From: Candidatus Omnitrophota bacterium
GTDB taxonomy: Bacteria; Omnitrophota; Gorgyraeia; Zapsychrales; Zapsychraceae
Length of the DNA stretch: 36,872 nt
Direction: 5' to 3'
Assembly (NCBI GenBank): GCA_016931055.1
Contig: JAFGFL010000021.1
Location: forward strand, 1-36,872
Shown here piece by piece: positions 3,001 through 36,000 of this stretch. The position numbers were made by a program, and so were the translations under genes. Positions within the stretch are counted from its first letter, which is position 1. The number at the start of each line of letters is the position of its first letter. The notes under the pieces are model-generated. The model saw only the letters and a list, made by a program, of their open reading frames with translations. It was not told the DNA's origin and searched no databases.

Positions 3001-6000
3001 GATGATATTTCATCGTCGCCGGTCTTCTCTAACAAGCATTTGCAGGACAATCCATTTGCCGATAAAGCCTATGCGCGGGCCGGTGTCGAAGCTTCAAGCG
3101 CAATTCCTGGGGATAGCGGCAGAAAGACAATTCCATTCTCGGCACATAAACAGAGTAAAGGGATTCTGCCAGTTCCAGCCGGGCTAGCTAGTTTGCCTAC
3201 CAGCAGTCCCTTACCAGACAGTTCTAGCGGATCAGGCAACCGCAAGGCTCCAGTAAGTATGGTTGTCATGGTGCGTGACCAAGAAACACGTTACAAAGCT
3301 TTCTTTGTCATTAATGTTCCTAAACCTACTTCAAATGAACAAGGGGCAAAGATATTATTAGTAATCGATAAAAATGGTGCTACTAGATTCTTAAGTAGCG
3401 GAACCAGCCCGACAACGCTCCCAGCTGTCCTCCTATTCCGCATAGGAGCAGACAGTGCAAATGCAAGCAGCGCGGAACATAAGTATGAGTATGTCGTAGT
3501 TGTTGTAGTGTCTCTTGACGAAAGTCTCGAGATTAGTGACGTTGTTAACTTGTCTGGTTCCAATTACTTCGGTAATATGGCATTAGATGAGGGAACATCT
3601 GCTTCTTGGTTTGTATCTGAAATCGCAAGATTATTCAGGTCTGGAGTAGCCGAGGCAGCAGAAGCAAACGCAGCAAGAAACAAGGCAGGATCGAATCCTG
3701 CTGGCAGCACCAGAAGCGAAGCAGCAAATGCAGTAAGCAGGAAGGCAACCTCGGAAGAGGATGCCGGTAATGTAAAGGCAGTAACGGATCGATCGACCTT
3801 AGCAGCAATGTTAAGGAAGGTTGACCAAGCGGTAAAGTTAGTGGTCAAACTGTATGGTTACGCTGTCGCGAGAGCGAAGCGGCTGTACGGGGCGATCCTC
3901 AGAGGTGGGAGAAAGGCCTCATCAGGCAGGTCAGTACAAGCTCCTGGACTCGTCCGAGTAGCGGTTACGGTCGAGGTTAGCTCTGCGGTGGCGAGTATCA
4001 AGGCCGCCTATAACGACGTAGTCAAACTATCAATCGCGCGCGTGATACACGCGTTCGGTAAGATTTCAGGTTCTGGAAGTGTTGGAACCGAAGATTCAAA
4101 GAGTCTGCCGTCAAAACAAGGTTCAAGCCCCAACGACTTGTCCCAAGGACAGGTTGTATCCATTTCTTCGTCTATATCTACAAAAGCAACTTCTAGTTTA
4201 TCCATACCTTATATTTCTTCCACTGGCAGGGCTATAGCGGCTCTCACAGCCGTTATTTTGGCGCTGCTGGCTTATTCCATAGAGATGAACGCGCCCGGCA
4301 TTATCGTATTGAGTATTGCGTATATCGTATATCGTAGTTCAATTAACAGAGAAAGCCTGGTTGGTGTCCGCCCTATCTTTGAACGGATTTCCGGCCAGGC
4401 TTTTGTAATTAATTTAACCATTAATCGTGCGCATGACGCATCACGCATCACGCACGGCGAAATAGGAGGTGCATTATGGATTACACCAATACGTATTACA
4501 CCAAGATTCAGTTCAAGCATTTCGTTGACGTCCCGAGCTCAGCCTGCATTATCGCTACTGCGCTTGATGAATCCAGGAAGCTTAAACTCTTCCTCATCGC
4601 CAATGGCAGCGGGGCAATCTATAGGAGAAACGGCATTAATAATACTTGGGACCCTCTTGAAAGCGAGCATCACGAAACGGTCCGCAGGCTTGTCAAGGAA
4701 AGCCTTAACGACAGCAGGATCCCGCGCTACACAACCAAAAGCCTTAACTAAGGCTGACAATGAGGGAGGCCGAAACTCTACCGTGGCAGGTATCTTTACG
4801 GCCTCCCTTGCAACACTATTCAAATACATTTTGAGATCCGGCTCACGCGTCACAAGGATCTTATTAACAACAAAAGAAGCAGTCTTAGACTACGCAACTA
4901 AGACTAAGGCAGGAGAGCTGCGCACAACTCTACCGTGGCAGGTATTTGCGAGCTCTCCTGCAACTTCTTCGCCGGTTGAGCAAACCCGCCGGGCCGCCTC
5001 TAGCTCGCCGGTTGAGAAAACAGCGGTTAGCGGAAAGCGAATAGCGTTTAGTTCAGTTAATCCGGCCTATACGCTAAACGCTATACGCTATACGCTGAAT
5101 CCTTCCAGTTCCCCGATTAACATGAAGCACCTTACAGACATCGTCAAGCGCGGGCTGCTCCGCGCCGGGCCGAAGGTGAAGATATTAAGCAGATTCCCAG
5201 TCAAAAAGCTTCTCGCCTTCACAACAATCTCTGTAATTTCCGCGTTAACTCCGTTAAAAGCTCTTGCGGCCGAGGCGGCTGCTGCCGCTACGGCTACCGC
5301 CGGCGCCAAAGCCGCCGTGGCCAGCGCTGCAACGCCGTGGATCCTCAATCCTATTGTCATTTGGGTTGTTGCCGCGACTGTTGTGGTCCTTGCCGCCGTG
5401 AAGCTGTTCACCGCGAAAAACGCGGCACAGAAGAAGATTGCCGCTATGGTCATCGGCGCGATTGCCGTCTCTGCCTTGGCAAAGATTGCGGCGGTACCGG
5501 TCCTTATAGGATTGGGCGTGGTGTTTATGATTGGTGCGTTAGTATTCCGTATCGGGACATTACGTGATATCTCCGTATCTTCCTATTCGGCCTTAATGGG
5601 CGCCGGGCTTATTGCCTTGCCGTTCATTGCAGGTGCCCAGTTCATCGTTGTTGCTTTTGCGGCCTTCGGCTTCCTCACATTGATGATGATCCTTGTCAAT
5701 AGTTTCCAGGGCGGCATAGAAAAACCGGATATGTCATTAAGGAAGATGAAGGAGGATATCCGGAAACGTCTTGATGAAAATCTCGCGCAACAAATGCTGG
5801 ATGATAACGGCAAGGAAATTATGGATGAGGTCAAACTCCGGAGCCGTTATATCAAGTGGTTATATCATGCCCATAAAGATGGATCGATGGTGGGAGGAAA
5901 CGCGCAAGAAAGTGAAGGGTTCTTAGGCAAGGCATTGACGTTTGCCAGAAAGTCAGGCATTAACCTGGCGGTTGAGGTGATGGAAGCGTTCAAGACGGCC

Positions 6001-9000
6001 TATGAGATCATCGGCGCAAGGAATAAGGAAGCTTCAAGAAATATCCTGATGAAGGCCGCGGTCTTCGGGTATGCCCTGATCCTTGCCACGGGCTATTTGT
6101 TCGCGAAGGTCATTTATATGTTCTTCGCGGGGCCGGGGACTCGCAAGATAGAGCTTAGAAGAAAGTTGGTCCGGGGCGATTTCGAGAACATCGATTGGAA
6201 CCTGGCCGCGCAGGCTGTGTTGTATAAGGAGAGAAACATCATCAAGATCATTATCCGCGCGGCAGATATGGCCTTCTTCAAGCTCGGATACCTCCATCCG
6301 CTTGCCTACAATCCGATTATGGTAACTTTCTCCCGTTTGTGGATTGCCGGGCTGGGCATTTACTTTACGCCGGTCGTTGTCACATTTGTTACGGCGCACT
6401 TGCCGGTATTTGCCGGAGTTGTTTTGGCGTTCGTGCTAGGCATTTTTGTGCTTAACCTTGCCTTACAATTCAGGTCACAGGTTCAGACGCACCACAGGAA
6501 CTTAGTCGACCTCCTTTCTGCCAGGAAGCATGGTGCTGTCGGGCAAGATGGATCAGCCCATCTGTCCCTCGAGAAAATGATCATTGCCGCCAGACGCGAA
6601 GGCCGGGACTGGACCACGGATGAAGGAATCAGGAAAGCATATCTCTCAGGGCTCCTTTACGCATCGAACACAACCCTTACAAGCATCTTGAGGGCTCAGC
6701 ACGGAAAGGTAAGCAAGAAAGGCTTGCTCTTGTTCTATAGTCTCTATCCGGCGGCAGCCGTTATGTATGTTCTCAATACTCTTGTTCCGTTTAACTGGAT
6801 TAGTAAATTGTTCTCCGGGAGTTCTCTGCAGACCAAAAAATATTTTGCGAATTTGGGGTCATTAAAAGTTTCGTTCATCTCGGGCGGCATCGGACTATCG
6901 ATCATCGGCGTTGAAATTGCCGGCGCTGTGCATATCGGCGAATCCCTCGGCGGGCCGGCCCAGCCGATCGTCAACGTGCTGGAAGGCGACGGCAAAGGCG
7001 GCCACAGTTTGATGAGCCTCGGTTCTGATATTATCCTTTCCGGGCAAGACGCTGTTGTGAATAAAGTCAATGAAGGGAAAGGCGACGAGCAAAAGATCGA
7101 TGCGAATGTCACGCGCTCGATATACAAAAAGTTATTCGGCAACGAGGACGACTTTAACCTGATGCCTTTGTACCGGCAAATCAGGCAAATGACAAACGGA
7201 GAAATCACATTTAAGGATTTTAAGGAACAATGGCTTGCGATGAAACCCGAAAATTTTGTATTAAAGCACCAGGACAAGTTAATAAAGATTGGCCTCTCTG
7301 AGGGGCTAGTCAAAAGGGATTGGGAAAAGCCGATTAACGGGAAAGATATCTCCGAGAAAGACAAGATCGTGATTATGAACCTGCTCGGCCTGGCGCCTGA
7401 TTCCAAGTTCCCGTTCGAATGGCTGGATTCGCGTGTCTTAGCCGCTATCGCGCGTAAATTGGCTATTGAAGAAAAAATCGAGGAATTGCTGAAACAAGAT
7501 TATGTTAAGACGATCAAAGACAAAAGATCCGTGTTTCAAAACCGCATCTCCGATCGGCTGATTGACTATGTTGCGGAAAAAGGCTCAATCAGCTTGTTTG
7601 ATCCTGCCATTTCAATGGAAGAAAGAGCCTTGATCTTAAGGGAATTAAACTGGCCGAGTTTCGCCTTGAAAGCGACGCCGAAGGAATTGACGGCGGAGGT
7701 TTTGGCCATGCTTGCGGTCAAGCTGGGGAATGAAACGCAAACAGGAGATGAGCCGCTTTCCGAAGAGGCGATAGCCGAGACGGCAGCCGGTCAGCCGCAG
7801 CGCGCCGTGCTCCTTTCCGGCAGGACGGATGTCATCGGATACGTCAAGGAAGATGTCGCTAAGCACCCGATCTTCACCCCGCAGCGGCTTCGGTTCGGCG
7901 TGAGCACCGAAGATATCAATAACCTGGGGCTCTCGATCATGCACATTGAGAACCGCGGCCGCGCGGTCGGTTTGAGCGAGGCAGGGGCCCGCGGCATCAT
8001 GCAGATCATGCGGGATACATGGAACAGGACGGTTGCCGTCCTTGTCGCCAGGGGCATCATCCCTTACGCCTACGATTATGACAAAGAGGTCAACGACGCC
8101 AGAAAGAGCATTGAGGTCGGCGTCGGGTATTTGGCGCTCATTACCGAGACGATGGCAGAGCGTTTCTCAGGGCAAGAAATGACGAAAGAAGATTTTATCA
8201 AGATCGTTGCGGCCGCCTATTTTGCCGGCGAAAACCATAAGTCCGATCAGTGGTACCGCGATGTCATCCGGGCGGGAACAAGAACAAGCCAGGACAATCT
8301 AAAAACCTACGCATACGCCCGAATGGCCTGGATACTTTTCGACAACATGGAATGGGATAGCCAGGGTAGAGCGGTATCCAAAAGCACTGCCAGCGACATG
8401 GCGGGAACATATCAGCAAGTTAAGGCCGTTGAAGCCAAGGACAAGGAGGCGCTGGCCAGGCAGAAGGTCATCGAGGAATTCAAGAAGAACAGGAATGCTG
8501 AAATGGCGAAGGTTGCGGAGAAAACAGGAAAGGCTGTTATCCCCGTCGTTTCCGTGATTGAAACGCAGCGAGAAGTTGTTCCTGCGAAAAACGGCTTTGG
8601 ATTACAATATGGACCGGAAGTTTCCCTGGTCATCAGGAATGATGAAAAGGAGACCTTTACCCGCATTGCGGCTGACGGGACGGATTATCCGATGTCCGAT
8701 GAACTGATTGAAAGAGTCAAGGCTGCTTTTGGCGACAGGAAAATCGAAGGGAAGACAGGGATCCAGGCCGGGGCTGTCCTGGTTTTGGCGACAGAGATTG
8801 TCAATGATGATGACCGCATAGAATCAGCCATCCTTCAATTGTTTGACCAAATTGCCGCGCGCGAAAAAGACGCGGGCGAATACTTAAGGATGGTCGTCTT
8901 TGCCGATGACACGCCGGTCAAGCTCGAAGGCAGACAATTCGCGAAATTCTTCAGGAATGTTATTCGCGGCGGGACGCGAGATGAAAACCACATTCCGGTC

Positions 9001-15000: not shown

Positions 15001-18000
15001 GGCGAAACATTGGTTGCGGTGGAAGGGGTCATACATATGGATATGACGAAGAAGACGGGATTTGAAGTGAAAATCGGAGCGGCCCGGGGCAAAAACAGCA
15101 AAGAACACACGCTGTTTATCACGGATCCGTTCAGCATCCCGGTCCTTGACACGACGGTCACAGTGCCGATTGATTATAAGGAAACCTATCTCTCCCAGAA
15201 GGCGACAATCCACCACGCGCTTAACGATCATATCAGGCTGAATATTTCCGTCATCGATATCCAGAAGGGGAATTCCCTCGGCCTGATAAGCGACACTCAC
15301 GAAGTCTTCGGCTCGGCCGGAGCGGATGTCTCATTCGATCTCAAAGGCACGACCATCTTCGTTGCCGGCGAATCGGCTTTCACCGGGGAAAACCGCCGGC
15401 ACAATGTCTCAGCCAGGGTCAATAAGGGCGCGCTGGATATCTCCGGGAACGTCGGCGAGGTCAATGGCGAGGTGATAAGCGGACTTAACGCGAGCTATAA
15501 CAGCAAAAACGGCACGCGCTTTGTCGTCAGCGGGGGCAGGAATTCAAAAGGCGTCACGTCTCTCAGCGGGGAGATATACGCGACGGCCGGCGAACGGGTG
15601 GATATTACCGGCGGCGGAAATGTTGAGAACGGCAAGTTTAAGCCGGAGTTGGGCGCGGCGATGACGATTTACAGAAGCGGCAAAAAGGACGTGAAGACGC
15701 CGGTTAAGTTGGCGGATGTTAATAGAGAAGATATCCCTGATGCCCTCAAGAAACTTTTCCCGGGTTATCAGGCGTTTGATAAGGAAAAGTTAGGCTCTTT
15801 GGTTGTCACTCCGGACCGGGCCGCCAGGGAAATGGACAAGAAATGGAACCGGATCATGAAGGTCGTGACGCGTGACGGACGGTGGGAGGTCAATTTAGGC
15901 ATTAAAGCGGCGGAATTAAAAGAGAAAGTCCTGCTGCACAGCGCCGGCGCGGCCATCTTTCCGGAAGACGGCAGGATCCTGCCGATTGACGAGCGCATTT
16001 ACAGCATCGCCAGGCGCATTGATGCCGTGGCGGGTCAAGCGGGCATCGAGAAAACACCGACGGGTTATATCTTTAAGGTCATAGATAAGTTCACAAAGAA
16101 GGAATACACCATTCCGTTGGACGGGAATGTCCTGGTCATTATTCCGGAAGACGTGAAGAGATTCGGCAAGATCCTCGGCGAAGAATTCCAAGGCATTACG
16201 GGCCCCGTGGTTATCGAAGCGAGCATTCCGATGCAGGAACGCCTCATGGAAATGAATGAAGGGGACCGCAGAGGCGTGATTCCTGCCAGAGGCCAAGGGA
16301 TCTTTGAGAACAACGATGACATCATGAAGGTGTTGACGGACAACGGTCTCGGCAACGGCGCCATCCAGTCGATCAGGACGCCCGATAACAGGTACGACGA
16401 TATGGGCAATCCTGTCTTAAGGACGGATATCGTGAACCTGACATTTACAGGCATCCCGATGTTGGGGACGGATGTGAATAACCTGGCCTCCGCGCCGAGA
16501 GAGCCAAGGACCGTCGTCATAGGCGAAAATGATGACGCCTCGCTTCAACTGAGCATCGCAGGGACGAAGGAATTCAGGCGGATGACGAAAGATAAATTCC
16601 CTGTTCCGTTTAAGGAAGGGACACTTTACTTGACCATCGAACAGCTTAAAGCGCGGGATAGGGAACTCATCAAGGCGCGGGAAGAGCTGGAGAAAGTGAT
16701 TGCAAAGTCCGGCAAAGACAGCGAGCCATACAAAGCGGCCCTAGGGAAGCTCGAAAAGGCAGAGGCCTCGATGTTCCACATGGAGTGGAGCAATATTGTC
16801 GGCGAGGAAGAATTGATTTTGACCATCCCGGCAAAGGACGCCAATCCGGAGTTAACGACCCTCTCTGACGTGGAAAACAATAAGAGGGTCGCTGTCAGGC
16901 TGCCCGAGGCGTACCTCGAAGAAGGGAAAGCGTATAAGCAGAATAGGTTATATGCGGTCGAAGGCAAGGTGGTCATTGCCCCCAGAGTCATCTCGGCTGA
17001 TCAGCGAGGCCGATTCAAGGAAGAAAACAGGCTCTTCATCCAGTCTCTTGGGCGCGGATTATTCGACGCCAAATATTTGACGAAAGCGGCTATCGACACC
17101 GTCTACGCGGCAAAAAAGATCGTTCCGGTTGTCAGCGGCCATCTCGAAGTGAAGGGCAAAGGGTTCCCTTATTATCCGGATGACAGCCCGCGCAATGATG
17201 CGTTCGATAAGGCCACGGAAGGCGGCGACCGGATCATCTACCGCTCAGAGCCTAACCTCGAGATACCCGGCTTCACGCCTCTGCTGACGCCGCGCATCCT
17301 GGACACGCGGACCCCGGCGCAGAAAGGCAAGGCCGTGAATGAGACCGATATCTTTGTCCCGGGCCTTGATTACGGGCAGCTGACGTTTAACGCCAGCGGC
17401 GAGGAATATATGCGGCAGATTGAGAAGAGACTTCTGGAAGAGAATTTTATGATCATCCCATCCGACCGCGGGATCGTGAAGGTCAATAAAGAGGATATGC
17501 CTCAGATCGTTGATTATGTGAATGGAGTTATCAATCTGAATAGCCAAGAAATCAAGGATATCAGGGGTAAGACGATCTATGAAGGCAATGAGCCGCTGCG
17601 TAAGCTGATGCTCTCGAAAGACATGACGTTCGACGGCGTGACGATCAAGAAGGGATCTGTCGTGAAGATCGGCAAGGGTTCCAAAGGCGAAGAGTATCTG
17701 AAGGCCGTTGAGGCGCTGGTGTTAGGGGATGAGGAAGAGCAAAAGAAATATGACTACAAGAAACTGGGTATCTCATTGGATGAAAAATATCAAGGGTTCG
17801 GCTTGTTCCATGTGCCTGATGGAAGTACCTATTTCGGGACGGAAGATATGTATATGAAATATATCGATTTCAAAGCAGGCAGGATTTACTTCAAAGCCGA
17901 AGAAGTAATCGGGCCTGATGGAAAGCCGATATTTAGAGGTGATCAGAAAGAAAAGAAAGGTGTTAAGAGCATCCAGTTTGAAAATAATCGATTGTATTAC

Positions 18001-21000
18001 AGGGCTCAAGAAGCAATTAAACCTGCTCCCAGACCGAAGTTTAGGGAGTTCAATGATAGCGATCAATTGTTTAAGTTGAAAACAATCAATGAGATTAACT
18101 CCGGAAAAACAACACGGCTTGACGCCGGCACAGTGTTCTATCCGGGAGTAAAAGCAGAATTAATATCGGCTGTTATCAAGGCGTTATACACAGGCAATGA
18201 ATCAATGCTGGCCGAATATAAGAAAGATGTCGAGAAAGACGCGATATTAACGGGATTAGTCGATAAAATCATTAGAAATTTTGATCAAGGTTGGAAACAA
18301 AGAGGCGAAGGTGTCCTGCATGATCCTAAATTAGGCACATTCTTCTTGAACAAAGAAGCTAATCGGAATCCGAAACACTTTATGAATATCAAGGAAGGGC
18401 GTGTTTATTTTAAAGCTGAAGAGATATTGGTGCCGGATAGAAAAACACCGTTAATTGAAAATGGACAAGCGGTGGAGAAAGATGGGCAGCCGGTACTTAG
18501 AGAAATGAAGCCATTATTTAAAGACGGGAAACAGGTCTTTAAATTAAAGACAATCAATCCAACGAGCATACAGGGAGAAACATTTAAACACCGGATTGAT
18601 TCTGGGGCAACAATTGAATTAGGGAGCTTAAAAGATGATTTGGAGACCGTGGAAGCTTTGTATAAGGGTGACGATGAAAAGTTAAGTGAGGATCTTAAGG
18701 ATCAAACAGAGAAAGAAGCGGGTATTATAGAAAGGGTTGTTCAGTGGATCAAAGAAATATGGGAGCGATATGTTTTACGGATGCCAAAGCCCGAGACAAA
18801 AACGGAAACGCTGGAAGTAAGAACCCGGGAAATAGCCGGACAATTTGATCAATATTGGGAAAGAGGCCAGGGCGCACTTAACGTTCCCGGGGAAGGGACA
18901 TTCTTCTTGAGTAAAGAAGCAAACAGGGATCCAAGGCATTTTCTTGATATCAAGGCCGGGCGTATCTATTTTGAAACTGAACCGGCATTGAACGAAAAAG
19001 GGTATCCGTTATTCTTAAAAGGTGAAGCCCAGTTCAAATTAAAGAATATCAACCCTGTTATCGTCAAAGGTCGGACGATAAGGCCGGGGGCAATTATTGA
19101 TTTAGGAAGAGATATGGAAGTGGACTTGAACGTCCTTGAGGCATTATACGAAGGAGATAGGGGAAAATTGAAGGAATATCGAGAGCAAATGGGAGAAAAA
19201 GAGAAACAAAGATTCGTTGAGATTGAAAAAATGTTTAGAAATGCGGGATGGAAGATAGGCAAAGGCGCCCTTCACACGGAGAAGCAAGGGACCTTCTTCT
19301 TATCCGAGGAGGCGGCTGACAATAATGATAATTATATTGATTTAGAGAATGGGCGGATCCATCTGAGGGGCAAATCTATTATAGGGCCGGATGGTTATCA
19401 TTTGTTCAGGAACGATAAAGAAGTGTTCAGTATAGAGACGGTTAAAGACATTATAACGGGAGGACATGTGGTTCCGCGCGGCGCCGTCTGGCAAGCTAGT
19501 GAGCTAGATATGTATCGGATGAAGACGATTGAAGCGTTGTATAAAGGGGAGGAAGAAACGTTAGATGCCCTTCGGAAGGAACATCCGGTTGTTGCGGAAA
19601 CCGAGAAGGAATTTAGGAGTTATTGGGAACCAGGGCAAGGCGCATTGCATCGTAAAATGGATGATGAAAGAGATGGAACGTATTTAATGACCCGAGAAGC
19701 CCTTAGTCGTCTTTATAATCCCGACACAAAACAGATTTTTATAAAAGCTGACGAAATCAGAGGGTCGGATGGAGAACTGCTTTTCAGCGATGACGGGACT
19801 CAGGTATTTACAATGAAAACGGCAATAGGCCTTCCGGTTAAAGGCGGCCAAATAGAAGAGGGGGCAATATTAGACCTTGGGGAAGAACAATCGGATATCT
19901 TAGGGGCGCTTCGAGCCGCGTATTTGGATGTCTATCCCGATGATAAGGAAAAACGAGATATTTATGAACAAAGGCTTAAAGAGATATGGGGCATTACTTC
20001 AAAAGATGAAGATCTCTTAGGATATGGGGCGCTCCATAAAGATGATAATACAGATAAGCAAGGACAGTGGTCTATTTTATTGGATGAACGCGCCTTAAGG
20101 GAGTTGTACGACCAAAATACAGGACGCACATATATGAGAGGGGAAAAGATCGAGAGGGCAACGGGAACAACGATTAATCTTAGAACAACGAAAGCTTTGA
20201 ATGTGCGAGGAATTATCGTTCCGGAAGGGGTAACGTTAGAGTTAGGAAAAAAATCGATAGCTATTTTGGATGCCCTTGGCAATTGGAGGATGGGCGAAGA
20301 GATCGAGCAAAGGGCAGGAAAAGGTAATGAGGATGAGAAAAAAGCAGGTGTTGTTTATGAACAAACCTATAAGACATTTGGGCAAACGCTTGAAACCCAG
20401 TATAAAGAAGGCTTAGGACGGGTCGATACAAATGTTGGCAGCTTTGTAATGACGGATCAACTTTTGGCGCGTCTTATAAGAAACAATCTATTGAAGTTCT
20501 CGATCAGTAAAGATAAGAAGAAAGATTGGGTATTTACCTGGGAGAATACCGGCGCCTTTATGATCGGAGACAAAACAATAGGAAAAGAGGGAGCTTCGTT
20601 TGTGTTAACGGATGAAGCGTTTAAACGTATGTGGGCGATCGTAAAAGATTCAAAAGAAGGATTTGGAACGATCGGCTCCAGGGAACCGTTATCCATGAAA
20701 AAACTTTTGGAATTGTATGCCAGGTCTAAAGGATATCTCGATATTGTTGAAGAGACAAACGGCCAGGGAAAGACCGAATTTGCCTGGAAGGGTATTAATA
20801 TTGAAGTCAATGCGGATGGCACGGTAACGGAAAATCGGGAAGACCTGGCGATAACGACAAAGGGCATTGTTTACCTTCAAATGCTCGAAATAGCTTTTAA
20901 AGAGGGAAGATTGCATTCCATGGATGGAAATGTTGATGTATTAAGCGATGAGGACGTAAAAGCAAGAAGAAAGAACCCAGACGAAACAAGGATTATCGCA

Positions 21001-24000
21001 AAAGCTGTTACCATTGAGAAGAAAGTCGCCTTGTATGATACTCCGATCACAAAAGAGATTTTATTAGGCCTTTATAAGAGAGGCGGCTATAAAGGCGAAT
21101 ATATAAAGTCGTTTAACTATGACTTGTACTACAGAGATATGAATGGAAATGATCGTTACGACCAAGGCGAAGAGATCAGGACGGCCAAGAAGCATCCTGT
21201 CGGATACAAGGCGTTAACGACAAATGATATCGAACTTAATGATGACAGTAAGGAGCTTTTGAAGAAAGTCCAAGCGGATAAAGTCCTTGTGGTCATAAAG
21301 ACCAAAGATAAACTTGCCCGCGAAGAAGTTGGGGTGAAGGAAGGCGAAAAAGAATTTGATGTGATGGAAGATGATGGCGAGGAAGAAGGCGTCAAATCTT
21401 ATTACATCTCGCTTGACAGGCTTGTTCAAAAGAAGACCGAAACAGGAAAATTCTCACCTGAAGAACTGAAAGAATATACGGATATTCAAAGAGAGGCGGA
21501 CCAGATTATTCTCTTCAACCCTGAACCGAAAGAAGGCGAACGCTATCAGGCAGCAAAAATCTATCTCACTTATAACCCTGATGAATCATTGATCGAGATA
21601 TTAAAGCCGGAGAAATTAAAAGAATCGACCATTTATCTGTTGTCTAAGTTTTACAAGGAACAGACAGGACGGGCACTAACGGATGTGAGCCCGAATTTCA
21701 CAGATCAAGACCGGATCAGGACTTCATATGAGACAGGCTTTGATCAAGAGGGGCTCAAACATGTGCTGGTGATGGATTTCAGGGCAAAAACAAATTATGT
21801 TGATATTTATAACACGGCGGGTGGTTTAGTCAGAAGGATCCGCCCTCTCTTTGGGCAGATTATTCATTACAATCCGGAAAGTGAGCATGAAATTTATTCG
21901 ACTTCGATAGGAAAAGATGTTGCCGCGAATATTAAGAAAATGTTCATCAATGCTATCGAAATTGAGAGGAAGAAAGGGACAAACGAAAAGAACCGTGAAA
22001 TATTCCCTGAAGGATCAACGGAAGAGACCGGGATATCCATGTCCCTCCACAATGAAGGGCGGGATGGCTCCCAAGTAGATCATGTGACAGGGATCTATCA
22101 ATTCACGAGAGAAGAAGGAAAGGAATATGTCACGTTTATTGATTTGAGGGACATTAATCGCGGTGGCGGTTTTGCCTCGATCAGGAAATCAAGATATCAA
22201 CAAGGAGAAATTCAGGAAGATGTAACTGGTTTTGTCCGCATTCCAAGGGAATATTTAGGCCATGACCGGTACGATATTGAACGGCTCACCGACCTGGCCC
22301 TCTTTGACCGGATTGATCAAGCAAAAGGTTATACCTTCAGCGATACGTATCATTATTCTAAAGAAACCAATAAGCTTGACTGGAGAGACGTCAAAATCCG
22401 CCCGAGCGAGGAGCAAGATTGGACTGATGCCTGGACGATTAAAGGGAATGGGAATGTGACAGCCCAGCATATTCTTGATGTCCAATATCAAGGATTGTTA
22501 AAACATGAAGAAATAGCGGGTGCCTTTGCGAAATTAGGGATCAACGACGAAACGGTCTTGTTCCCGGCGCATGTCAGGACAACTGACCGTGTCGTAACGA
22601 CCGACTACAGGATCCTGCATGATTGGCAGGAGCGCAAGATTATTACTGTAAGGCGAGAAGCGGTCGAAGGGAAGGATGCGATAGGCCCGATAATTGAGGT
22701 CATTGTTGGGCTTGAGTTTGAACCGAAGACAGGAGAGCAGACGCGGTCGGTGAAACTGACACCGGATTACCAGATCAAAGGTGATTTTGATGAAGTTGAT
22801 GACCAGGAAAGAAACGAACTCAAAAGAAGAGGTGTCCATTTAGAAAAGACAGCGGGCATATTATTCAAGAAAATGAAAGCGATCTATGAAGATGTGGTTT
22901 CAAGGCGATTTGAGAAAGTCAATGGGATAGACATTGAGAAAACACCGTTGAGAAAACTCATGATGGCTTTGGAAGAAATCGGTATTGGAAGTGAAACGGA
23001 ACTGATTATTATTCGTGAGCAGCCAAGATTATTAGAGACCAAGGTAGATGGCAAGACAGTATATGTTCCATATTCCGGGCAGCCAATCCTGCACTTCCTT
23101 ATCCCTCATGATTCCCGAGGGCGCGATATCGCGATCTTGTATCCGAATGGGGATCTGGCTGTCAATTTATGGTGGTTTGAGGGCAAAGAGCTTCTGGTTA
23201 AGTACAATGGCAAAGGTGAGTCTGAACCGTTTAATCTTAAACTCGGTATAGTTCCAGGAACGATCGTGACAGAAGAAAATAAAGGTGAAGGGTTGATGGA
23301 TGCGATTTATAAGAAATTGGGAGTTAGAGACGAAGAAAGATTAAAAGAAGTCCAGATTTATAAACGACCGAATCCGGCAACGGCTGTATATGAAATTATT
23401 TTGGCTGAACGAGGAAAAGAAGGCCGGGTAATAGAATATCAAAAGGACAAAGGCAAATATGTGGAAGTTGCAATAAAAGAAAACGGTGAAGAAGTCCATT
23501 TTGCAGAAACAGGAAAAGGTTTTGAGACAACAAAAGACGGAATATTCATCAGACTTTCAAATGGGAATTATGCAAAGGTTATCGCGCGGGTAACCGGAGG
23601 AGGAAACGACAAAGAAGCCGAAAGCATATCCTTTAGCGTCGAATATGAGGATGGCCTAAAAGTTGATGGGTATGAGTATTTAGTGCTTGATTCGCTGCAC
23701 AAAAAGAATGTTGTCTATACTCCGGGCGGGCAATTATTGGCAGAGAAATATAAATACATTAAGGCACGTATTATAAAAGAAATGTTAGGCGTTGCGACAC
23801 GGGGAGAAGAAACCACCTATTTGGATGTCAGATCATCTCTGAGGCAACCCATTGCGAGTGTGTTAGATGAAGATAAGAGTGTCACGAAAACATTCTCGGA
23901 CCAAAAATTTGTGATTACAACTGATGGCAATCAGAGGTCTGCCGTAACGACCATAGAAAAAGAACCGATGGGTCCAAATATCACACATACTCACGAGTCA

Positions 24001-27000
24001 ATATATATCAACAGCGAATTTAATGATAAATATCGAACGGATTATCCGCGTACGATGGGCGATATTTACTCCACGTTTAAAGGTGTCGCCCTAGGCTTTA
24101 TGATCGTTGGAGGCTTATTAGCTATTATCGGTTGGTTGGCTGATTACATACGGATACGGAGAGTGAAGAAAGGATTGGATAGAGAAAAAGAAATAAGCGC
24201 CAACAATATGCCTGTCAATCCGACCCAATATCCGGAACCTTATGCTGCCGGATACGGCTATAATGACCAACAACGTGAAACTGCCAAACATAAATTCGGC
24301 CAAATTACACATAGACTGGATAGAGGAGAATCTCTTGACAAGATTTTCGATGAGTACTTTGAAGCTTACAGAGTTTGGAGGAAACATATTCTCAACGAAA
24401 AGGCAGAATTCATTCCTGCCACGGATCAGGAAAAAATTGATTATCTTTGGATGCTCACGTTACAGCTTGTTGGGATAGGGTATTTCCATAACGATACTCC
24501 GGATTTCTTCTCTTATGTATTACATAAATCCATAGAAATGAAGCTTACGCAACAAGAAAATCAAATTGGATCTTTTGTCCGGGCCGAATATGAACGATGG
24601 TACAAGATACTTTCTTTAACAAACACAAAATTGAAAGGCGTTGTTGGCGGACCGGCAAGCAATACTGTGTCGCATGATTCTGTTTTCAATATTGATGATT
24701 TCAACGACATGTTCAGGACTAAGAAATTCATTGACGATTATGATCAGCTTGAAAGAAATGGGAAAAAACAGCAGGCTTATGATGACTTGACTGAAGAATT
24801 GGAGAAAAAGACAGTGGCTGTTATTTCTGAAGCCCACAAACTCGGCGGACAATTTGCAGGTGATAAATTGCGGGTTAAGAAGGTATTAGCAAAATCTGAT
24901 GTACTAAAAGATTATGTTAAGTTTGTTCAGGGCATTTGGATGTCGGAACATCCGCTATTTCTCAAAACATATCCTGATAAACCCAGCTGGTTACATATTC
25001 TTAGAAATTTCTATGGACCGCTTATGGTTGTTATTGGGATAGTCTCGATAGCAGCTGTGATTTCTAAATATTTGTATTTTGGTATCAGTCTAAGCCAAGG
25101 CGCGTTGGCTATCTTCATTATAGCCATTGTTGTCTTGACACAGAAACATCTCCTTAACGCTTGGATTAACAGGAAACTTAAGAAAAACTCAACATACAAA
25201 ACAAAAAGACCTGACGCCGGTTATGAAAAAAGCAAGCCATCCTTTAAAGAGGAGCTTTTCAGGTACGGGTTCTGGGCTGCGCTTTTGGGTGGGAAATTGT
25301 GGTGGAACGTGTTTGTGTTTAAATATTTATTTATTGCCGTTGGCGAATTGTTAGGTGCGACATGGGTGCCAACAATATTTGGATTGAGCCTGGGCATCAA
25401 TATGGTATTTCTGCTCTATATAGGGATATGGATTCCATTCATCCTCTTCTTTATCCTTGACACGTTCTCATTCTTCTACATTTTTGAAGGGATTACAGGA
25501 TATATCCACGGAAAGCTCCAGGGCATTGGGACAATAAAGAGTCAGAGAAAGATAAGGAAGCTTCAAAAGGAGAACATTCTAACTCGGCTTATTGAACATA
25601 AATTAATCCCGAGAGGATTAAATCTCACGCCTGCCCAAAAGAATGTCGCAGTTGCCGAAATTATCAATCTTATTTTAGAACGGGCCCAAGCCAGAGATTA
25701 CATCAGCCCTGAAGCATTCGAAGAAAACAAATGGGGGATTAACCGTCAGAAAGGGGAGGATTTCCTTAATGCAACGGTTTCAGTAAGCGAGAAGTTCTTT
25801 GATTTGGATAACAAAATCATCCAAAAACGCATGCAGGTTTTCTTTAACAGTTTATTTATGAATATGCCCGATCTTCCGCTCTTGGAACGTATAAAATCTT
25901 TGACAGCCATGATCCCTGTCGGCCCTGGGGAACACTTAATTTACCCGTATTTTCAAGAAGGAGAGAATGTGAGCTTAGATTTGATCCTTGATACCGGACA
26001 TACAAATCTTAATTATCTAGTCAAGCGATATACAGACATGTGGGAGAACCTTATCAAAAGAATGACAATCTTAGTAAATGACATAGAAAGAAAAGGGGAA
26101 TATAAGGGAAGGAAAATATCTGCGGATGAAATTAAGGAAATGAGAAAACAAATAGAAGCAATGATAACTTTACCTTCGAGGTTCGGGGAAAGATTGGGTG
26201 ATTTGCATCCGATCCTGAAGATGGAAGTAAGGCTTTGGGGCTCTAATCGATTCCAAGCGTTCATAAGAACGTTGGATGGAATGTCGGATTATGCGAGAGT
26301 GTTAAGGCTTTACGCAAAAATTAATCATCCTGAATGGAGTGACGAAAGAATTGATAAAGAAGTCGCCAAGAAATACCAGATTCTATGGGGGCATCAAGGG
26401 TATGGCAATTATAAATTCATGAAAGCAGGTAAAGGAAAGGATAAAGAAAAAGCACAGGATACCTATGATATTCTGAGTCGATTAGGAGACCAAGGGATTA
26501 TCATAGATATTGCCTATTTGACTCCGTTTAACGAAAACATTGATGAAGATGTTATCAATCAGCCCGAAAACAGGGTCGAGTTATTTGCTAATGACGGTTA
26601 TTGGAATAATGTGCTTGCACGGTATAATCCGACAACTAAGAAAATAGAAACCCAATATGTTGTTCACTTAACAAAAGATCATCCTGTATTTGCAGAGGGT
26701 AAACCTGCGAACCAAACACACACTCGTCGATTTGCCCGCAGCGAAGTTATCATGACCATAGATATTAACCAGGATTTTTATGTTGAGCAGGCATTCAAAA
26801 TACCGCACTTATTAGAAGAATTTGATAAGGATGGCAGAATTGCTGTCGTTGGTTATCCAGAAGATGTCTTTACGGATACATTCAATAACATCGGCCTCTT
26901 TCATGCTGTAGCGGACCGGACGTTTGTAACTCTTGTTCAGAGAGTATTGAATCTGCTTGGCGTGCGGTTCCATTATGGGCATCCTGACGTGTGGCGCGCT

Positions 27001-30000
27001 TCGTCCGCGGAAGTTTACGGTGGCGTTTCCGCGTCATATCCGGTTAACGAGGATATCTTCGGGGGTTATTTGAGGAAACTGAAAGGGCAAAAGATCATCA
27101 ATGTTGAATATATCGAGGCAGGAAAGGCGCGTGAAGGATCATGGCCAACAACCGATGGCATTTTCGGGAAGTTTGGTATGGGGGCCACGCAACAGATGTA
27201 TAATCGGTTCTTACATTGGATCAATTCTTCAAAAAATATGCCACTTGTTGAAAGAATCTCCCATCTATTTGGCGGCATTGGTTTTTATATGCGTAAACCT
27301 TGGATTATTATCGGTCTGTATGTATATTTACTCGTGACCCTTCTGGGAGGTGTAAGCGGATTCGCGGCATTTCCGGCCGAATTTCTAGTTGGCGTTATCG
27401 GGATTTTTGTCTTTGGGCAGGCTATTACCTATACCGGATTCTTGCAGTGGCTGCTTGAATACGGCATCTTTAAGAAAATATCCATAAAACGGGTTAACGA
27501 GAGGAAATGGTATAGTAAACCAAAGTTTGAAACAATACACGAACGCATGAGCTTGACTATATTAAAACATAAAATTGAGGTCGAGAGCGGCCTGATAAGC
27601 TTTGCTTGGGTATTTCTAAAGATGTGTACTTTCTTCATGGCCCATGTATTTACAAATGCTTTCGGGGTAAGACAGGCTGTTAAAGGCCTGGCTCAGTATG
27701 TTGCGACTGGAAGAGGGTTCATGTTGCAGGCATTAAAATTACATGATGCGGATGGAAAAGGTTTCTTGTATAAGTTTTCAAAAACACATGTTAATAGAGG
27801 GCTTATCGGGTTCGTTATTTCCATTTTAGCTGTTAAAGTGTGGTTTAATCCCACATTGCTTTTCTCGATTTCGTTTATTGGGATATTCATTGCGGCAATG
27901 ATTATTCCGATTTGGTATACAAAAGGCAATTTCCCTAAAGATGGCGTTACTAAGGAAGCATATGTTAAATTATTTGGGGAAAATTTGAAAGAGGGATGGA
28001 AATATATAATCAATAATTTTAAAGAAGGGCGAAAGAATAAGGACCGTTCCAGAAAGTGGTTTGATACAATTTCTTATTTTGTGACTTATATTGTATGGTT
28101 ATCTGTAGTTCCATTCCCGCTCTTTTTGGCGGCCTTCTCGTATGTGTTCATATTGGGTCTAACAATGCCCAATATTATTATTGGGATATCGGCAACTTTA
28201 TTAACTTCACCGTACTTATGGACTCGTATCCTGATAGCAATAAAATCTAGACGACAGAATCGAAACGATTCAGCTCCTTATAGCCCAACATCTGGAAGTA
28301 AAAGTTCTTCACCGGTTACACAAAATCTTAAGAATGACCAGTCCGGCTTTGGCAACGTGGTGAGATTCGGGATATTGTTCGCGCTAAGCGGGGTTGTGAT
28401 GGCGGTTGTAGGAGATGCTTCTATTTCTGCGATGGCTGTTCCGGCGGCCATTGCAGGATTGACAGCCGCAGGCGTCCTATTCGCCCTTATATTTAGGGAA
28501 AGGCGTGAGGTCAAAGAGGCGTGGAGAATCGTTAAAGAAATGTTCGCGTGGAAAGAACCAGTTAAGATTAACCCGGCACTTCCGGAAATTGAAGACAAGG
28601 CGCGGGAGATCAAGCGAATCGAGTTAGTCAACTTCAAGATTGCGAACGGGCTCATCCGGTGGCTGTCGGGATTGTGGGACACGGTCGCCGGCTGGTTCAC
28701 AAAACGTGCTATTGTTATCGGAATGCCTGATGGCGAGGTTGTCAAAGGTGACGCCAATGCGACGGCCACTATCAAGAATCAGCCGAAGTTGGCGATCAGC
28801 AGTCCCGTCGGATCAGTCTTTGTGGCCTCGAGCTCACCGATTTCAGTTGAGGGTGATCCTGTTTGGGACGCTTATTGGGCCAAGAAAGCAAAAGTGAACG
28901 GTGGACAAGAAACGGTTAAGACGGTCAAAGATACTCCGGTTTCAGCGGCCATGACTGTGGCGGTAACAGTTCCGGTTGCTCCTGCCGGAAACACGGATCT
29001 GCCTCGTGATCACGTCGCTGTGGTAAACCGTGAGGTTGCGGCTCCTGAAACCAAGGAACGAAAAACAGGAAATTCCAAGCGCGCCCCGCCAGTGGCGGTA
29101 GATAGCGTCGTTGTTCCAGGTCTCAATATCCTGCCTGATATTTATACTCCTTCAGAACTTCTGATGCACAATCTTCTCTTTGAAGCATTTCCTATCGCTT
29201 CCAGTCCTGTTTTTTATTTGGCAGATCCCACCATTTTGTATAGGAAGGAATTCCTAATCGAATTTGAATATAACGATACGCTTGCTAGAAACATTCCAAT
29301 TATTGCTGTGATTAAAGATTATCGTCAAAAAGATAGATACAAAAATGAAAAACTAATAAAAGAAAGTGTTGCTCAGGGCGCGGTTGGAGGAGCCAAGTCG
29401 AGAGATTATCATAAAGGGGCCTTGTTAGCGGCAGCCTTGAACAGTGATTATCTGGATATGAATAAGAGTGATTGGATTCTACGGATGATTGAACCAACCG
29501 GAATGGATATCTATGCGGATACCATGGCGATAGCAGGCGGAAACAGGATCGCTTTGATCAATTTAGGCAACAAGAACATAAGACTGATCAGGAATAAGAA
29601 ATTCGCACATTTGCATGATATTGTCTTCTCTTCCGATGGTAGCCGGTTGCTTGTTGCCGCCTCAGGATTTGATAAGCTTTTGGAAATAGATGTCAAGACG
29701 GGGCATGTTGTTTGGGAGTGGACGAGCTGGGAGCATGAATATAACAAATCGAAAGACGGGAAAGTCTTAACGGCAGATAGGAATGAAGCACAAAGATTGG
29801 AAAACTTAGGGAAAGACGTCATTTTGGTGAATGATTATGCCGATACTAAATGGAATGGCTTTGGGGTGCCAACAAAATATAGGGCTACGCATGTCAACGG
29901 GGCGATCTATGGGTCTGATAACAAAATTCTGGCGACTCTGTTCCATCCGGGCGAGTTGATATCTATAAATAAAAAGGACGGCTCTGTAGGGGTTGTTCAC

Positions 30001-33000
30001 ACCGGACTTAAGAATCCTCACGGTTTTGTTCAAGATCCTGAGTTTGGATATATGGTTACGGATACTAAAAATGGGCGAGTACTATTTTTGGACGCGTATT
30101 TCCATACAGCAAAGGAAGTGAACCTTGCCGGTATGCCCGGAGCAATAAAGGAGAGGGCTCTGCTTGGAGAGTGGATTCAGTATGTGACAAGGATTGGAGA
30201 AAGGCTTTATGCGGCAGTTAATATTTCCAACAGTAGCATATATTTATTTGATATCAAGAGAAGAGAATATCGGCAAATCAAATTCTCTGAAGATTTGGCA
30301 ATCCAGAAAATAATTAACAATGACCGAAATATTTATTTTGACGATAGGGCGCTTCAACAAAAATGGGACTATGTTAATGAAGGAAGCAACAGGCTTAATG
30401 CCTCCAGCCCCGTTAAATATCTTTCCGGAAGGGATGCGTTAATTGACAAGGCCGTATCGGAATTCGGATTAGGTGACGTCCAAAAGCTTCAGACCATTAC
30501 TTCCGGTTATTCAGAATCGTTAGTCGGTTCGATAATACCGATGATTATCACATCTAAAGGCGCGTATCTCCTCAAGAAGTTAAACCCCAGAAAAGTCCGA
30601 ACGCAGCAGAGAGCCGAATATATTGTCGGCCTGGCTAACCATCTAAGGGATGGCGGGATGAACGTTCGGATTCCTCACATTGCCAAGGCAGGGACAAAAG
30701 GCGAAAAAGCTTCTGATTATATTATGAGCTTTGCCAATGATTTGGGCGAGGAGGAGTTCTATATTGTCGAAAAGTTTATGGAGGGGTATGTCCAAGTTTC
30801 AAGAAAAGACGCGACAAGAAATATGCTGTTTAATGCCGGAAAGGTACTGGGTGAAATGCACGCGGCATTGGAAGCGTATGAGGGCGAATATACGGAACAT
30901 GAAAACGATTATTCACTTGAGAAGATGATCGAGCGCGTTCTCGGGTTTGATTGGGAAAAAAACTACAAAGGAAAGCTTGATAAGGGAAATCTCGCAGCCA
31001 TAAAGGCCGCTCAGAACGAAATAGCCGCATTCAAGACAATACTGCCGCGGTATAGAAAGCAGCACATCCCCAGCGACTTGAACTTCGGAAACATGATGTT
31101 TGACGCAAAAGGCAATGTCGCCGTACTGTTTGACTGGGACAATGCGCGCAAGGCGTACCGATTTGAAGACGTTTTCTCCGTCATAACGAATACCGGACGG
31201 GTCGGTGAAGGGCATTACTTTGGCGAATTTACCCCTGCGGATATAATGACCATGCTGGAGGGGTATGCGGCATCAGGCACGACGTTGACGTCAAAAGAAA
31301 TTGCGGGCATCTATTATGATTATCTCGGGTTATGGATGTTCGATGCCAGAGTGGCTATGGAAGCGCGAAAAGACGCAGGAATTGGTAACAACGATCTTGC
31401 AAAACGGCATTTAGAGCGGCTGAAGGAAGCGATGCGAATCCTTGCGTTCCTGAAGGATGAAGATTATACGGTTGCAAACGACTTAGGAATGTTGATATTG
31501 AATCCAAAAACTATAGGTCAGAGGGACATTCTTTCTGATCCGACGAAGGTTGCGATTGTTAGAATTGACCCGGCGAAAGTGCGTATTCATATCGTGCCTG
31601 ACAGCAGCCTTCAGGATAAGTTCGGGCCGGTTAACAGGGATAATAATGTGATTCCACATCCCGGATTTGAGGATATCGATCAGAAGAGAGTTTTTGACAG
31701 TATTCACGACCAAAAGCTTAAGACACCGGAAGAACTAGCCCGTGAAGATATTGGCACCGATAAAGCGGTTATCATGTCCAGCAATGAAAATCTGTACTGG
31801 AATGCTCCGGTCGTCGTGTATCACAACGGAACAATAAACTATGCCAGAGAACAGAAAATCGATGAAAATGTTTATCCAATGTTTGTTGTTTGGAATGACG
31901 GCCATGTGACCATAGAGGACCATGTTACATTCACTTTAAAGGATGGGATTGGCGGTCAAGCAAGGATTAGAATTGATAATGTGGACAAAACCTCAGATGT
32001 TGAGGCGGCAACATTTGTCCAGCTTATTATGAGCAAGAAACACGAGGGTTTTGTCGCACCGGACAAGAAAGAGAGAATTGCATGGTATGACGATATAAAA
32101 CATGTCTTTGTTATGCGGGGATATTCAAAGGATGATATCGAGAAGAAGTTTGGCGAGACACTTACTGAGAAAGAAGTGCCAATGATGAGCGAGGCGGTAT
32201 TTTTCGGGGCTAAGCAATTAAACAATAATAGACAATTGGCGGCGGATGCCTATAAGGGGCCGGTCAAATTGGATCTCACGCTATCCATTGGAGAAACGGC
32301 GGTTAACGGCCAAATGAAAGCAAGCAGAACAATCAAAATGCCGTCTGAAATATTGAAAAATGATTTGATCAAGAAAGGGTACCACTATACGCCTGAAGGG
32401 GTCAAAGAAAAAGGAGACTTCCAGTTCAATGAGCGGGGTAACATAATCGAAATATTCTTCCTGGAGAATCCTTATCCGTTCCATTTGGTAGGAATTACAA
32501 AAGAGGGCGGGATTCTAGAGGTGGCTATTGAGGGGCGGTCCGGAGAAACGGGGGCGACCATACGCCAGGCCTATGAATTTATGAGCAATCTCGGAGCTGT
32601 TGCAGCAGGGATCATTGATCAAGGGCGTAGCGTTCGGCTGAATATTGCCGAAAAAGACGGGAGTAGAGATCTGGTCAGGGCCAAGTTCGGAGAAACCAGG
32701 TCGACGGCAGTTATTGCTTATACGGCCAGAAACACCAAAAATGCTTCCAGCTCGCCGGTCCAGGATGCGAATGATCCCGTTTGGGCCGCTTATCTTGCCA
32801 AGAAGGCCAAAGAGAACGGCGGGCAAGAAACGGTCAAGACAGCAAGTCCCGTCATTCTGCCTCGCACCGAGGGGACCTTGGAACGGGTGCTCGGTACCGA
32901 GGTGAGCCCGAAGGGCGAAGAATCTAAAGTTGAGATCTTTCCGCTTCGCCGTGAGAATTTGACAAAAGCTTCGGCTCACCGTCAGGATGACGGCGTGTTG

Positions 33001-36000
33001 AAGGCTATGACACAAGACACAGGGCATAAGACACAAGAATCAAGCCGCGAAGCTCCCAACCGCTGGGCGGTGATCGAAGACAAGGACCGGATCGCGCGCA
33101 AGGAAGAAGAACGCAAAGCCCATCGCGAGCAGGCCCCGCCGGCTGAAGCGATATCTGTCTTGAATGAATCCATCAGTCCTGCCGCAAACGCTTTAAGCTC
33201 GCCGATCAATTATAACGTCACGCCGGAAGAATATCAGGCCCAACTGAACGGGAATTTTGCGGCCAAAGATCGCAAGGCTTTAAATGTCTTGAAACAGTCT
33301 CTTGAAGAACTAAAAGCCATAATGGCGAAAAACCGTTTCGTCTTCATTCCTGCCGATCAACAGGAGCTTGAGCGAAGTCTCTTCTTGAGCATCGATTTGC
33401 GGAAAGATCAGGCATTGAAGGCTTACGCGCGAACAGTTCAAGAAAAGGCTGTCGAAATCCTTGGGGATCGCCGGAAAATCAGGTTAAGTGACCTTTCAAC
33501 ACTGCATGCTTCATTAGTTAACGACGCGATTGGGGATAATACCCTGGATATCAGCGATGAGGCCATCGCAAGAATTTATGAACAATACAAGGATATCATG
33601 GCCGGCATCGATGCTTTTGAATTGGCAATCCACGGCCCGCATTTGATGGACAATTTCGGGATCGTCCTGGAACTCCGCACCGGATCGAAATATGTATTGG
33701 CTATCCGTAGGGCCGCCCAGGAAATGCTGGATAAGAATAAGGAGAAACTCCCTGAAGGAGTAACGGCTTATGTTCCGAATATCTTCCATGCCTCATTAGG
33801 CTATATTATTGACGCGCAACCGGAAGAATTGCGCATGATTTATGAAGAACTCAAACGTCTTCGGGAAAACCTTGATGAGCCGATCATGATCAAAGCTGAG
33901 CAAATCCAGGTCGTGAAAACAATTAATAAATTAATGGATTATAACGGCGCAGGAATTTTTAACCTTACGCCGACCTCAAGCCCGGTTGAGGCCAGGAAGA
34001 TCCTAGTTGTCGATGATGATAAGAGCATCCGCACTTCGATAAGAAGGATATTGGAATTTGAGGGATATGAAGTCCTGATGGCGGCCAACGGCGTAGAGGC
34101 CATGGAGGCCGTTAAGGCCCATCCGGATATTGCCCTTATCTTTACGGATCACGATTACAAACATCGCGCCATGAACGGCCTTGAGTTTATCAGGCAAGTT
34201 CAGATTGCGGCGGCAAATATCCCGATTGTGTTAATGACATCCACCACGGGAATCGCTGAACAAGCCATAAAGTTCGGCGCGAAACGGGGGATCCCCAAAC
34301 CGTTTGGCATCGATGAGCTGCTCAATGCTGTCAAAGAATATATCTCCTCTTCGCCGATAAAACATGAGTATACGCAAGAGGAATTAAGGAAGATCAGCCG
34401 GGAAATCATCGCGAACTCTTATGCCGACTGGGGGCGCTATTATCCGGATGTGTTGCGGCGCGGGCGCCTGAGCATGAGCCCTGAAGAAAACAGGGTCTGG
34501 GCCGAGATGAACAACGCCGTATTCCGCGAGGCGGAATCCAGGAACATGAATACCGGCGGGCGCGGCCGGACCGCGGCCTATGACCGGTTTGTCGACGCGT
34601 TCCTCTCGGCATTATTCGAATATGCCGGCATAAAACAGGTTAAAAAATCCAGCTCGCCGGTCAAGCAAAACTATACGGCGCCGCGGACCTTTGACGGGCT
34701 GAAGGTCGAGTGGTTCGGGCGCAGGGCGGTCATTCGTTTGGGCGGCGGCAAGGCCTTAAATATCAAGTTTGCCCATCAATTGGAGGACGGCGGATTTGAT
34801 CCTAACGACATTGGGATGCTCAAGCGGGAGGCGCGCAATATGGCGGAGTTGACGTTCCTGCCGTTTGTCCCGCTCGCCGGCAAAAATGGCGATTTTGTTT
34901 ATGCGTTTGAAGGGGAAATTCACGGGCCGATGATCGATACGATTAACGCGGACCATGATTATCCGGCGATCGGTTTTATCTCAAGCGAAGAAAGCTTAGA
35001 TTATCTTATCGCTAAGGTCAAGGCCGGCCGGCCTGTTGTTGAAAGTCTCCGCAAGGCCGCGGCGCTTTCGGCGAGGCATCTCGGGCTTCTGATCAGTGAA
35101 GGAAAATATCACGGCACGCTGCTTCCCTTAACGCATCATGACAGCGCTTGGCAATGGGATTTCACGACGATAGGGCATTTTACGATTACGCCGGAGCATT
35201 TATTGCATCCCAACATCACCGGGGCCGGCATTTCCGATCTTGAACATGTCCTCCCGATACCTCTGCCGCAGTATACCTATACCCCTCTTGTTTACGGCGG
35301 CCATGGGCTCATGTTTAAAATGTTGACCAACCGGTCTTTGGATTCATGGTTCGGCCAGCAGTTTGCGGAATTGATGATCGGCGTGATTGCGGCAGGCACG
35401 CTGAATCACATCCGGATGGAACAAATAAAGGGCATTATCCGGATGGCGGCTGAAGAATATTATCTGATGGTCACAGGGAAGAATTTGGGCCTAATTTCCG
35501 CGCAGCAGGAATTGGATAAGATCATCCGCGAGATGAGGCAGATATCTCTGAATAGGAAGGCCGGCATCTCGGAGTACGGCGCGAATGTTCTCATGAGGTA
35601 TGTGGGGGAAATCACCGGACAGTTCAAGAGCACGGAAGCCCATGAGCGCATTTTAAACCTGATCAATGGGCGGAAGAATTCGAGCAGCCCGGTCGGGACG
35701 AAGGGCAATTCTCGTTCGCCCGAACAATTAAAAAGGATCAGCCGGGAAGCCATTAAGATCTTGTATAATCGGTGGAAGCTTGATCCGGCGTTGATGAGGG
35801 CGCGCGGGCCGAGGAAAGATAGGATAGACCGCAGCATTGCTCAAATGGTGTATCTCATAGCAAAAGATCTCGGGATGCCGACCAGAGGGCCCAATACTAG
35901 CCGGTATGGCGAATTCATCGATATTTTCTATACCGAATTGGAATCTTATATCAAAGAGCAAGAGAGGGGGCCATCAAGCTCGCCCCTCGCGTCCGATGGA

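Follow-up and report, generated by a model that had tools for sequence, protein, structure and literature searches.

Synthases of family GT48 make callose and fungal wall glucan and are the target of echinocandins. The 36,872 nt stretch analysed here (the window), one complete contig of a Candidatus Omnitrophota genome (2.2 Mb, 94 contigs, 89% complete), raises the question whether a giant bacterial gene encodes such an enzyme. An earlier note, made from the letters alone, had read positions 24230-28260 as a GT48 1,3-beta-glucan synthase embedded in a giant open reading frame (ORF) of bacterial type. We find a GT-A domain lying between two transmembrane clusters, with the catalytic residues of yeast Fks1 and an Fks1-like predicted fold, in one long frame that is partly colinear with a relative. 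The segment is probably a processive beta-(1,3)-glucan synthase using uridine diphosphate glucose (UDP-glucose), a bacterial GT48 enzyme in a giant envelope protein of Omnitrophota, and beta-1,3-glucan is its most likely product as far as sequence can tell.

Identity of the synthase segment

PF02364 matched the window in two pieces (25819-27342 and 27583-27903) with 209.2 bits (E=1.4e-61), far above the curated cut-off of 37.2, and a family-specific profile match spanned 25153-28263, near the extent given in the earlier note. Fks1 was matched by phmmer at 5e-30. A profile built from 21 relatives retrieved Fks1/Gsc2 from the PDB with E values of 1e-101 to 1e-104 and no other chain, not even BcsA, at E<=0.01. 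The AlphaFold model of 25138-28497 reached a predicted TM-score (pTM) of 0.79, and when it was compared with the PDB by Foldseek the 13 best matches were all Fks1 or Fks2 (E down to 1.1e-28, for Fks2), the next fold match being the cellulose synthase BcsA, far behind at E 2.8e-8. Moreover, membrane segments flank the GT-A domain on both sides, as in Fks1. The parts of the segment, all on the plus strand, are as follows.

24085-24141, + strand: transmembrane segment ahead of the accessory-like domain (hydropathy)
24265-24939, + strand: helical domain at the position of the Fks1 accessory domain (FKS1_dom1), identity uncertain (alignment and model)
24997-25458, + strand: transmembrane helices before the GT domain, ending ...IWIPFILFFILDT (hydropathy, model)
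25819-27342, + strand: GT48 catalytic GT-A domain, PF02364 (Pfam, PDB profile search, Foldseek)
26698-26721, + strand: GKPANQTH motif, holding the equivalents of Fks1 K1082 and N1085 (residue alignment with Fks1)
26761-26769, + strand: D-I-N triplet, equivalent to the Fks1 DAN motif, D1102-A-N1104 (residue alignment with Fks1)
26971-26988, + strand: HYGHPD motif, invariant in the alignment of relatives
27046-27054, + strand: N-E-D, equivalent to Fks1 N1220-E1221-D1222, with the catalytic ED (residue alignment with Fks1)
27304-28494, + strand: C-terminal bundle of transmembrane segments that includes YVATGRGF at 27697 (second PF02364 piece, hydropathy, model helices)

The presence of GT48 in a giant bacterial ORF is thus borne out by the Pfam match, by the profile match to solved Fks1 and by the predicted fold; the PF02364 search and the structure model, both suggested as checks in the earlier note, gave a significant match and the GT48 fold, respectively. 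The motifs it had listed (QGYGNY, GKPANQTH, IDINQDFYVEQAF, VRFHYGHPDVW, NEDIFGG, AGKARE and YVATGRGF) are present in that order, and the core ones align with Fks1. Its N-terminal 'DDFN block' held up in part: a helical domain with a predicted local distance difference test score (pLDDT) mostly of 80-95 lies at the right place, but its tie to FKS1_dom1 is weak, PF14288 matching two of 15 relatives at E=0.01 and the window not at all. Neither Foldseek nor the PDB profile search returned a match for this domain. A cellulose synthase of family GT2 was considered as the identity of the segment and rejected, as the window carries D-x-N instead of DxD and the family profile finds only Fks1/Gsc2 in the PDB at the threshold given above.

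Catalytic residues and predicted product

Catalytic and substrate-binding residues of yeast Fks1 were taken from PMC12715860, and the window has the equivalents of E851, K1082, N1085, D1102, N1104, E1221 and D1222. K1082, D1102, N1104 and D1222 are retained in all 34 bacterial rows of the alignment, which share just 18-30% identity with Fks1, while E1221 is found in 32/34 and E851 in 31/34; at the position of N1085, 23 rows have asparagine and 11 a replacement.

Several points weigh against reading the segment as a beta-1,3-glucan synthase of a giant envelope protein. Y849, which contacts UDP-glucose in Fks1, is glycine in the window and tyrosine in only 9 of the 34 bacterial relatives, although this single contact was not counted as defining for GT48. 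Residue conservation was scored on rows that had themselves been collected for their resemblance to the family. Identification of the Fks1 accessory domain in the window is insecure, and linkage specificity is not readable from sequence. Activity and expression of the window gene are predicted; on the supporting side, peptides of a giant ORF have been detected in another member of the Omnitrophota, V. archaeovorus (PMC10066038). In the host genome all matches to TIGR01099 stayed below the cut-off, so that no clear galU was found at 89% completeness. The giant gene extends past the contig at both ends and its termini lie outside, and hydropathy is the sole basis for the topology of its large middle part.

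The low identity to Fks1, the variable Y849 position and the replacement of N1085 in 11/34 rows, together with the occurrence of DxD for DxN in relatives within other giant frames, speak for an old bacterial branch with diverged donor and acceptor sites, whose GT48-fold synthases would make another polymer, be it a beta-glucan of different linkage or one of a different sugar. As K1082, DxN and the ED pair persist in practically all GT48-type rows, as the window itself has all seven residues named above, and as the characterised GT48 enzymes, to our knowledge, make beta-1,3-glucan, we consider this rather unlikely. Very unlikely is an inactive synthase, retained in the giant protein as a structural membrane module. 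Motifs are indeed lost or altered in several giant-frame relatives (NKD for NED in L044, DVG for DxN in L104), but in the window all tested catalytic residues except Y849 are present, and the stop-free frame and the conservation of motifs among sequences that are 25-50% identical argue for selection.

The giant frame, its relatives and a proposed mechanism

A single plus-strand frame is open over the window, whereas the other five frames contain 360-886 stops each. On other contigs of the host genome, TAA, TGA and TAG all serve as stops of ordinary genes, and therefore no recoding is needed for the long frame; stop-codon reassignment as its cause is ruled out. With 36,870 bp (>20 kb), 21 transmembrane-like segments and an Omnitrophota host, the frame is a giant ORF of the type known from this phylum, and its relatives within the phylum are titled Ca. 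Omnitrophota. The separate small gene preceded by a Shine-Dalgarno site that had been proposed is unsupported, since the whole contig is one frame. The G+C content at third codon positions (GC3) is ~0.6 upstream, ~0.42 within window 18000-31000 and higher again beyond; most genes in the rest of the genome have 0.5-0.65, and a clear GC3 step at GT48 is missing from three other giant frames. The further features of the frame are the following.

1-36870, + strand: ORF of 12,290 codons over the entire contig, running off both ends (no in-frame stop)
4231-6924, + strand: nine predicted transmembrane segments forming the first cluster, residues 1411-2308 (hydropathy scan)
7930-8247, + strand: SLT lytic transglycosylase domain, residues 2644-2749, catalytic Glu present in MHIENRG...GARGIMQIM (PF01464, E=1.4e-6)
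21598-23400, + strand: conserved domain of unknown function immediately before GT48, with an IPxDSRGRDIA motif (alignment of 8 relatives)
29620-29988, + strand: weak beta-propeller-like stretch, PQQ_2 (PF13360, E=0.0017, below cut-off)
30547-31197, + strand: APH-type phosphotransferase/kinase-like domain, catalytic residues present (PF01636, E=5.9e-10)
32476-32643, + strand: NAGPA-like (phosphodiester glycosidase) fragment (PF09992, E=4e-5, 24.3 against 25 bits, just under cut-off)
34000-34335, + strand: response-regulator receiver (REC) domain in which DD, the phospho-acceptor D, T/S and K are all found (PF00072, E=4.3e-19)

By hydropathy, no membrane segment follows the first cluster until residue 8029, where the GT48 regions begin; these extend to residue 9498, and none follows. 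The SLT and REC domains, both named in the earlier note, are real, and the active-site residues of SLT, APH and REC are retained as judged by eye. Few Pfam domains were found in the remaining window. The domain at 21598-23400 had no Pfam or PDB match and hence no solved relative; with its IPxDSRGRDIA and TGEQ...LTPDYQI motifs it stands before GT48 in many relatives. Domains downstream of GT48 vary between genomes. In the giant frames L065 (6048-20000), L066 (1-9729) and L055, housekeeping-type domains (ribose-phosphate pyrophosphokinase, HAD, FAD oxidase, CrcB, deaminase) follow GT48, as if adjacent genes had been absorbed.

PF02364 scored over the curated cut-off in 32 of 384 Omnitrophota genomes and gave any match in 36 of them, most lying in frames that range from thousands of codons up to 42,913, and contig edges often truncate the short ones; a more sensitive profile found matches in 59/368. 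A genome-wide scan with two patterns derived from bacterial rows, which GT48 in other phyla could escape, yielded 20 loci, 18 from Candidatus Omnitrophota or a named member, one from Candidatus Endomicrobium (Elusimicrobiota) and one from a 'Planctomycetales' bin. Eleven of 295 Elusimicrobiota genomes have a match, five over the cut-off. Planctomycetota as a third phylum was rejected, because GTDB assigns the bin concerned (L042, G385) to a family that also holds Omnitrophota bins. Likewise rejected was a viral or plasmid origin, since relatives were found neither in IMG/VR, scanned with short patterns, nor in plasmid or phage collections. The distribution is patchy: two congeneric genomes lack GT48, which may reflect loss or missing contigs.

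Residues 2635-9158 of the window are colinear in parts with Ca. Zapsychrus exili at 21-34% identity, with unaligned stretches between. In Ca. Zapsychrus the colinear parts, from SLT to GT48, are spread over three consecutive ORFs, with a fourth behind them, and the window SLT resembles the SLT part of the first. The four ORFs (L049, G115:C24 60002-109729; 2420, 3548, 2776 and 7894 codons) partly overlap, and one break, either a true split or an assembly frameshift, separates the accessory-like domain from the membrane helices of GT48.

A eukaryotic source, by contamination or recent transfer, could be suspected, as GT48 is known from eukaryotes and GC3 drops to 0.41-0.45 at codons 6000-10000 compared with ~0.6 upstream. 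However, GT48 shares its frame with SLT and REC, and colinearity with Zapsychrus holds for pieces on either side of the change in GC3. Its closest relatives are Omnitrophota sequences of ~50% identity, compared with 24.6% for Fks1; the bacterial rows differ from one another, down to 17% identity, as much as from Fks1, and many independent genomes carry them. Contamination is thus refuted by the related loci in Omnitrophota and some Elusimicrobiota and by the shared frame, and we regard any recent eukaryotic source as extremely improbable.

One genome (G357) has a complete frame of 23,462 codons flanked by ordinary genes. It probably starts (L053:4183 onward) at an ATG after a GAGG-like site, followed by a signal-anchor-like segment WLKVTAVAVICTFVPQQISWAFN, and type II secretion genes (secretin, T2SSE, T2SSF) lie nearby. 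Few Pfam domains were found in it; a peptidase C39-like stretch near the start is just under the cut-off. This stretch, and the division of the Ca. Zapsychrus parts among four ORFs, would fit a real frame whose protein is cut after translation, GT48 being released as an enzyme of normal size and the fusion having little functional meaning. The window itself yielded no protease, most relatives keep the modules together in a single frame, and the Zapsychrus breaks might be assembly frameshifts; we consider such cutting possible but doubtful, and it would be compatible with a beta-1,3-glucan synthase.

For this synthase we propose that cytosolic UDP-glucose would be bound at the K and N of GKPANQ and at the D-x-N triplet, that transfer would be metal-independent, as reported for Fks1, and that the ED pair would carry out catalysis. 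By processive transfer of glucose, a beta-(1,3)-glucan chain would be elongated and pushed through a channel of the flanking helices. The large part between the membrane clusters, SLT included, would lie outside the cytosol, and by opening the peptidoglycan the transglycosylase could make way there for the polymer or for the protein. A surface glucan or a coat for attachment might result. APH and REC may regulate the synthase, taking the place of the fungal Rho1 GTPase.

Origin of GT48 and comparison with known systems

The link between GT48 and cellulose synthases has so far been structural. Of the weaker matches of the sensitive profile, nine were read (L101-L109; genomes G347, G225, G158, G063, G140, G243, G298, G155 and G269). 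They lie in long and giant frames of up to 57,756 codons, and each is matched by the GT48 profile, with E from 1e-107 to 1e-21. Two of them have D-x-N (DAN, DTN), four D-x-D (DWDH, DWDM, DRDH, DADH), one DWE and one DVG, and the ninth does not reach over the site; the ED pair is present in all divergent relatives. When a profile of the seven divergent relatives other than the two with D-x-N (A5) was searched against the PDB, both BcsA (2e-5) and Fks1 (1.5e-3) were matched, and the same profile aligned with the GT48 profile over 695 columns at 100% probability. Furthermore, two of the divergent relatives weakly match GT2 Pfam models. Judged by these matches, the giant frames contain a sequence bridge between GT2 and GT48.

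In a tree rooted on the seven divergent relatives, yeast Fks1 was nested within the bacterial GT48 set. The approximately unbiased (AU) test rejected monophyly of all 34 bacterial GT48 rows without Fks1 (p=0.007) and did not reject a topology holding 27 core rows together (p=0.22). As the groups were picked post hoc, Fks1 was the sole eukaryotic sequence, several outgroup rows were incomplete and branches were long, the tree offers a lead towards a bacterial origin of the eukaryotic GT48 enzymes and does not establish it. Tentatively, we suggest that GT48 may have arisen in bacteria, in giant envelope proteins of Omnitrophota and related bacteria, by a change of the DxD metal motif to DxN in cellulose-synthase-like enzymes of GT2 type, that eukaryotes may have taken their beta-1,3-glucan and callose synthases from this pool, and that the DxD relatives could be surviving intermediates.

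With this large and diverse bacterial set, in which some relatives match BcsA as well as Fks1 by sequence, the origin of GT48 becomes directly testable, and new homologues are available for work on structure and mechanism. In addition, a catalytic function is assigned to part of the giant proteins of Omnitrophota, most of which have no known role, and the predicted polymer, beta-1,3-glucan, can be sought by ordinary staining of uncultured cells. Both GT48 and the giant genes of Omnitrophota had been described before. Our literature search, which did not extend to the preprint of West-Roberts et al. 2023, found no paper joining GT48 with Omnitrophota or Elusimicrobiota, although automatic database annotation may exist; papers naming PF02364 together with bacteria were, judged by title, concerned with eukaryotes, and the papers covered by the search report GT48 from eukaryotes alone.

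Among known systems, the closest is Fks1/Fks2 (GSC2), the fungal 1,3-beta-glucan synthase of CAZy family GT48 (PDB 7xe4, 8jzn, 9wzs), which shares with the window PF02364, a GT domain between membrane clusters, DxN and ED, the YxxTGRGF block and the predicted fold. The window protein differs in being bacterial, at ~25% identity, in lying within a giant polypeptide with SLT, APH and REC, and in the glycine at Y849 and the uncertain accessory domain. Dependence on Rho1 is not expected; activation by this GTPase is a fungal trait and does not define GT48. BcsA (GT2) shares the cellulose-synthase-like fold as a weaker match, but it is metal-dependent with DxD where the window has DxN, and the window-family profile matches Fks1 and not BcsA, whereas that of the DxD-type relatives matches both. 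The known bacterial route to beta-1,3-glucan is the GT2 curdlan synthase CrdS, with presumably the same product class in a different CAZy family. Finally, the giant ORFs of Omnitrophota (Seymour et al. 2023, PMC10066038) correspond to the window frame in phylum, in stop-free length above 20 kb and in their many transmembrane helices, and the type II secretion genes close to the complete G357 copy are a further shared feature; few annotated domains were reported for them and neither GT48 nor glucan is mentioned, whereas the window carries a full catalytic GT48.

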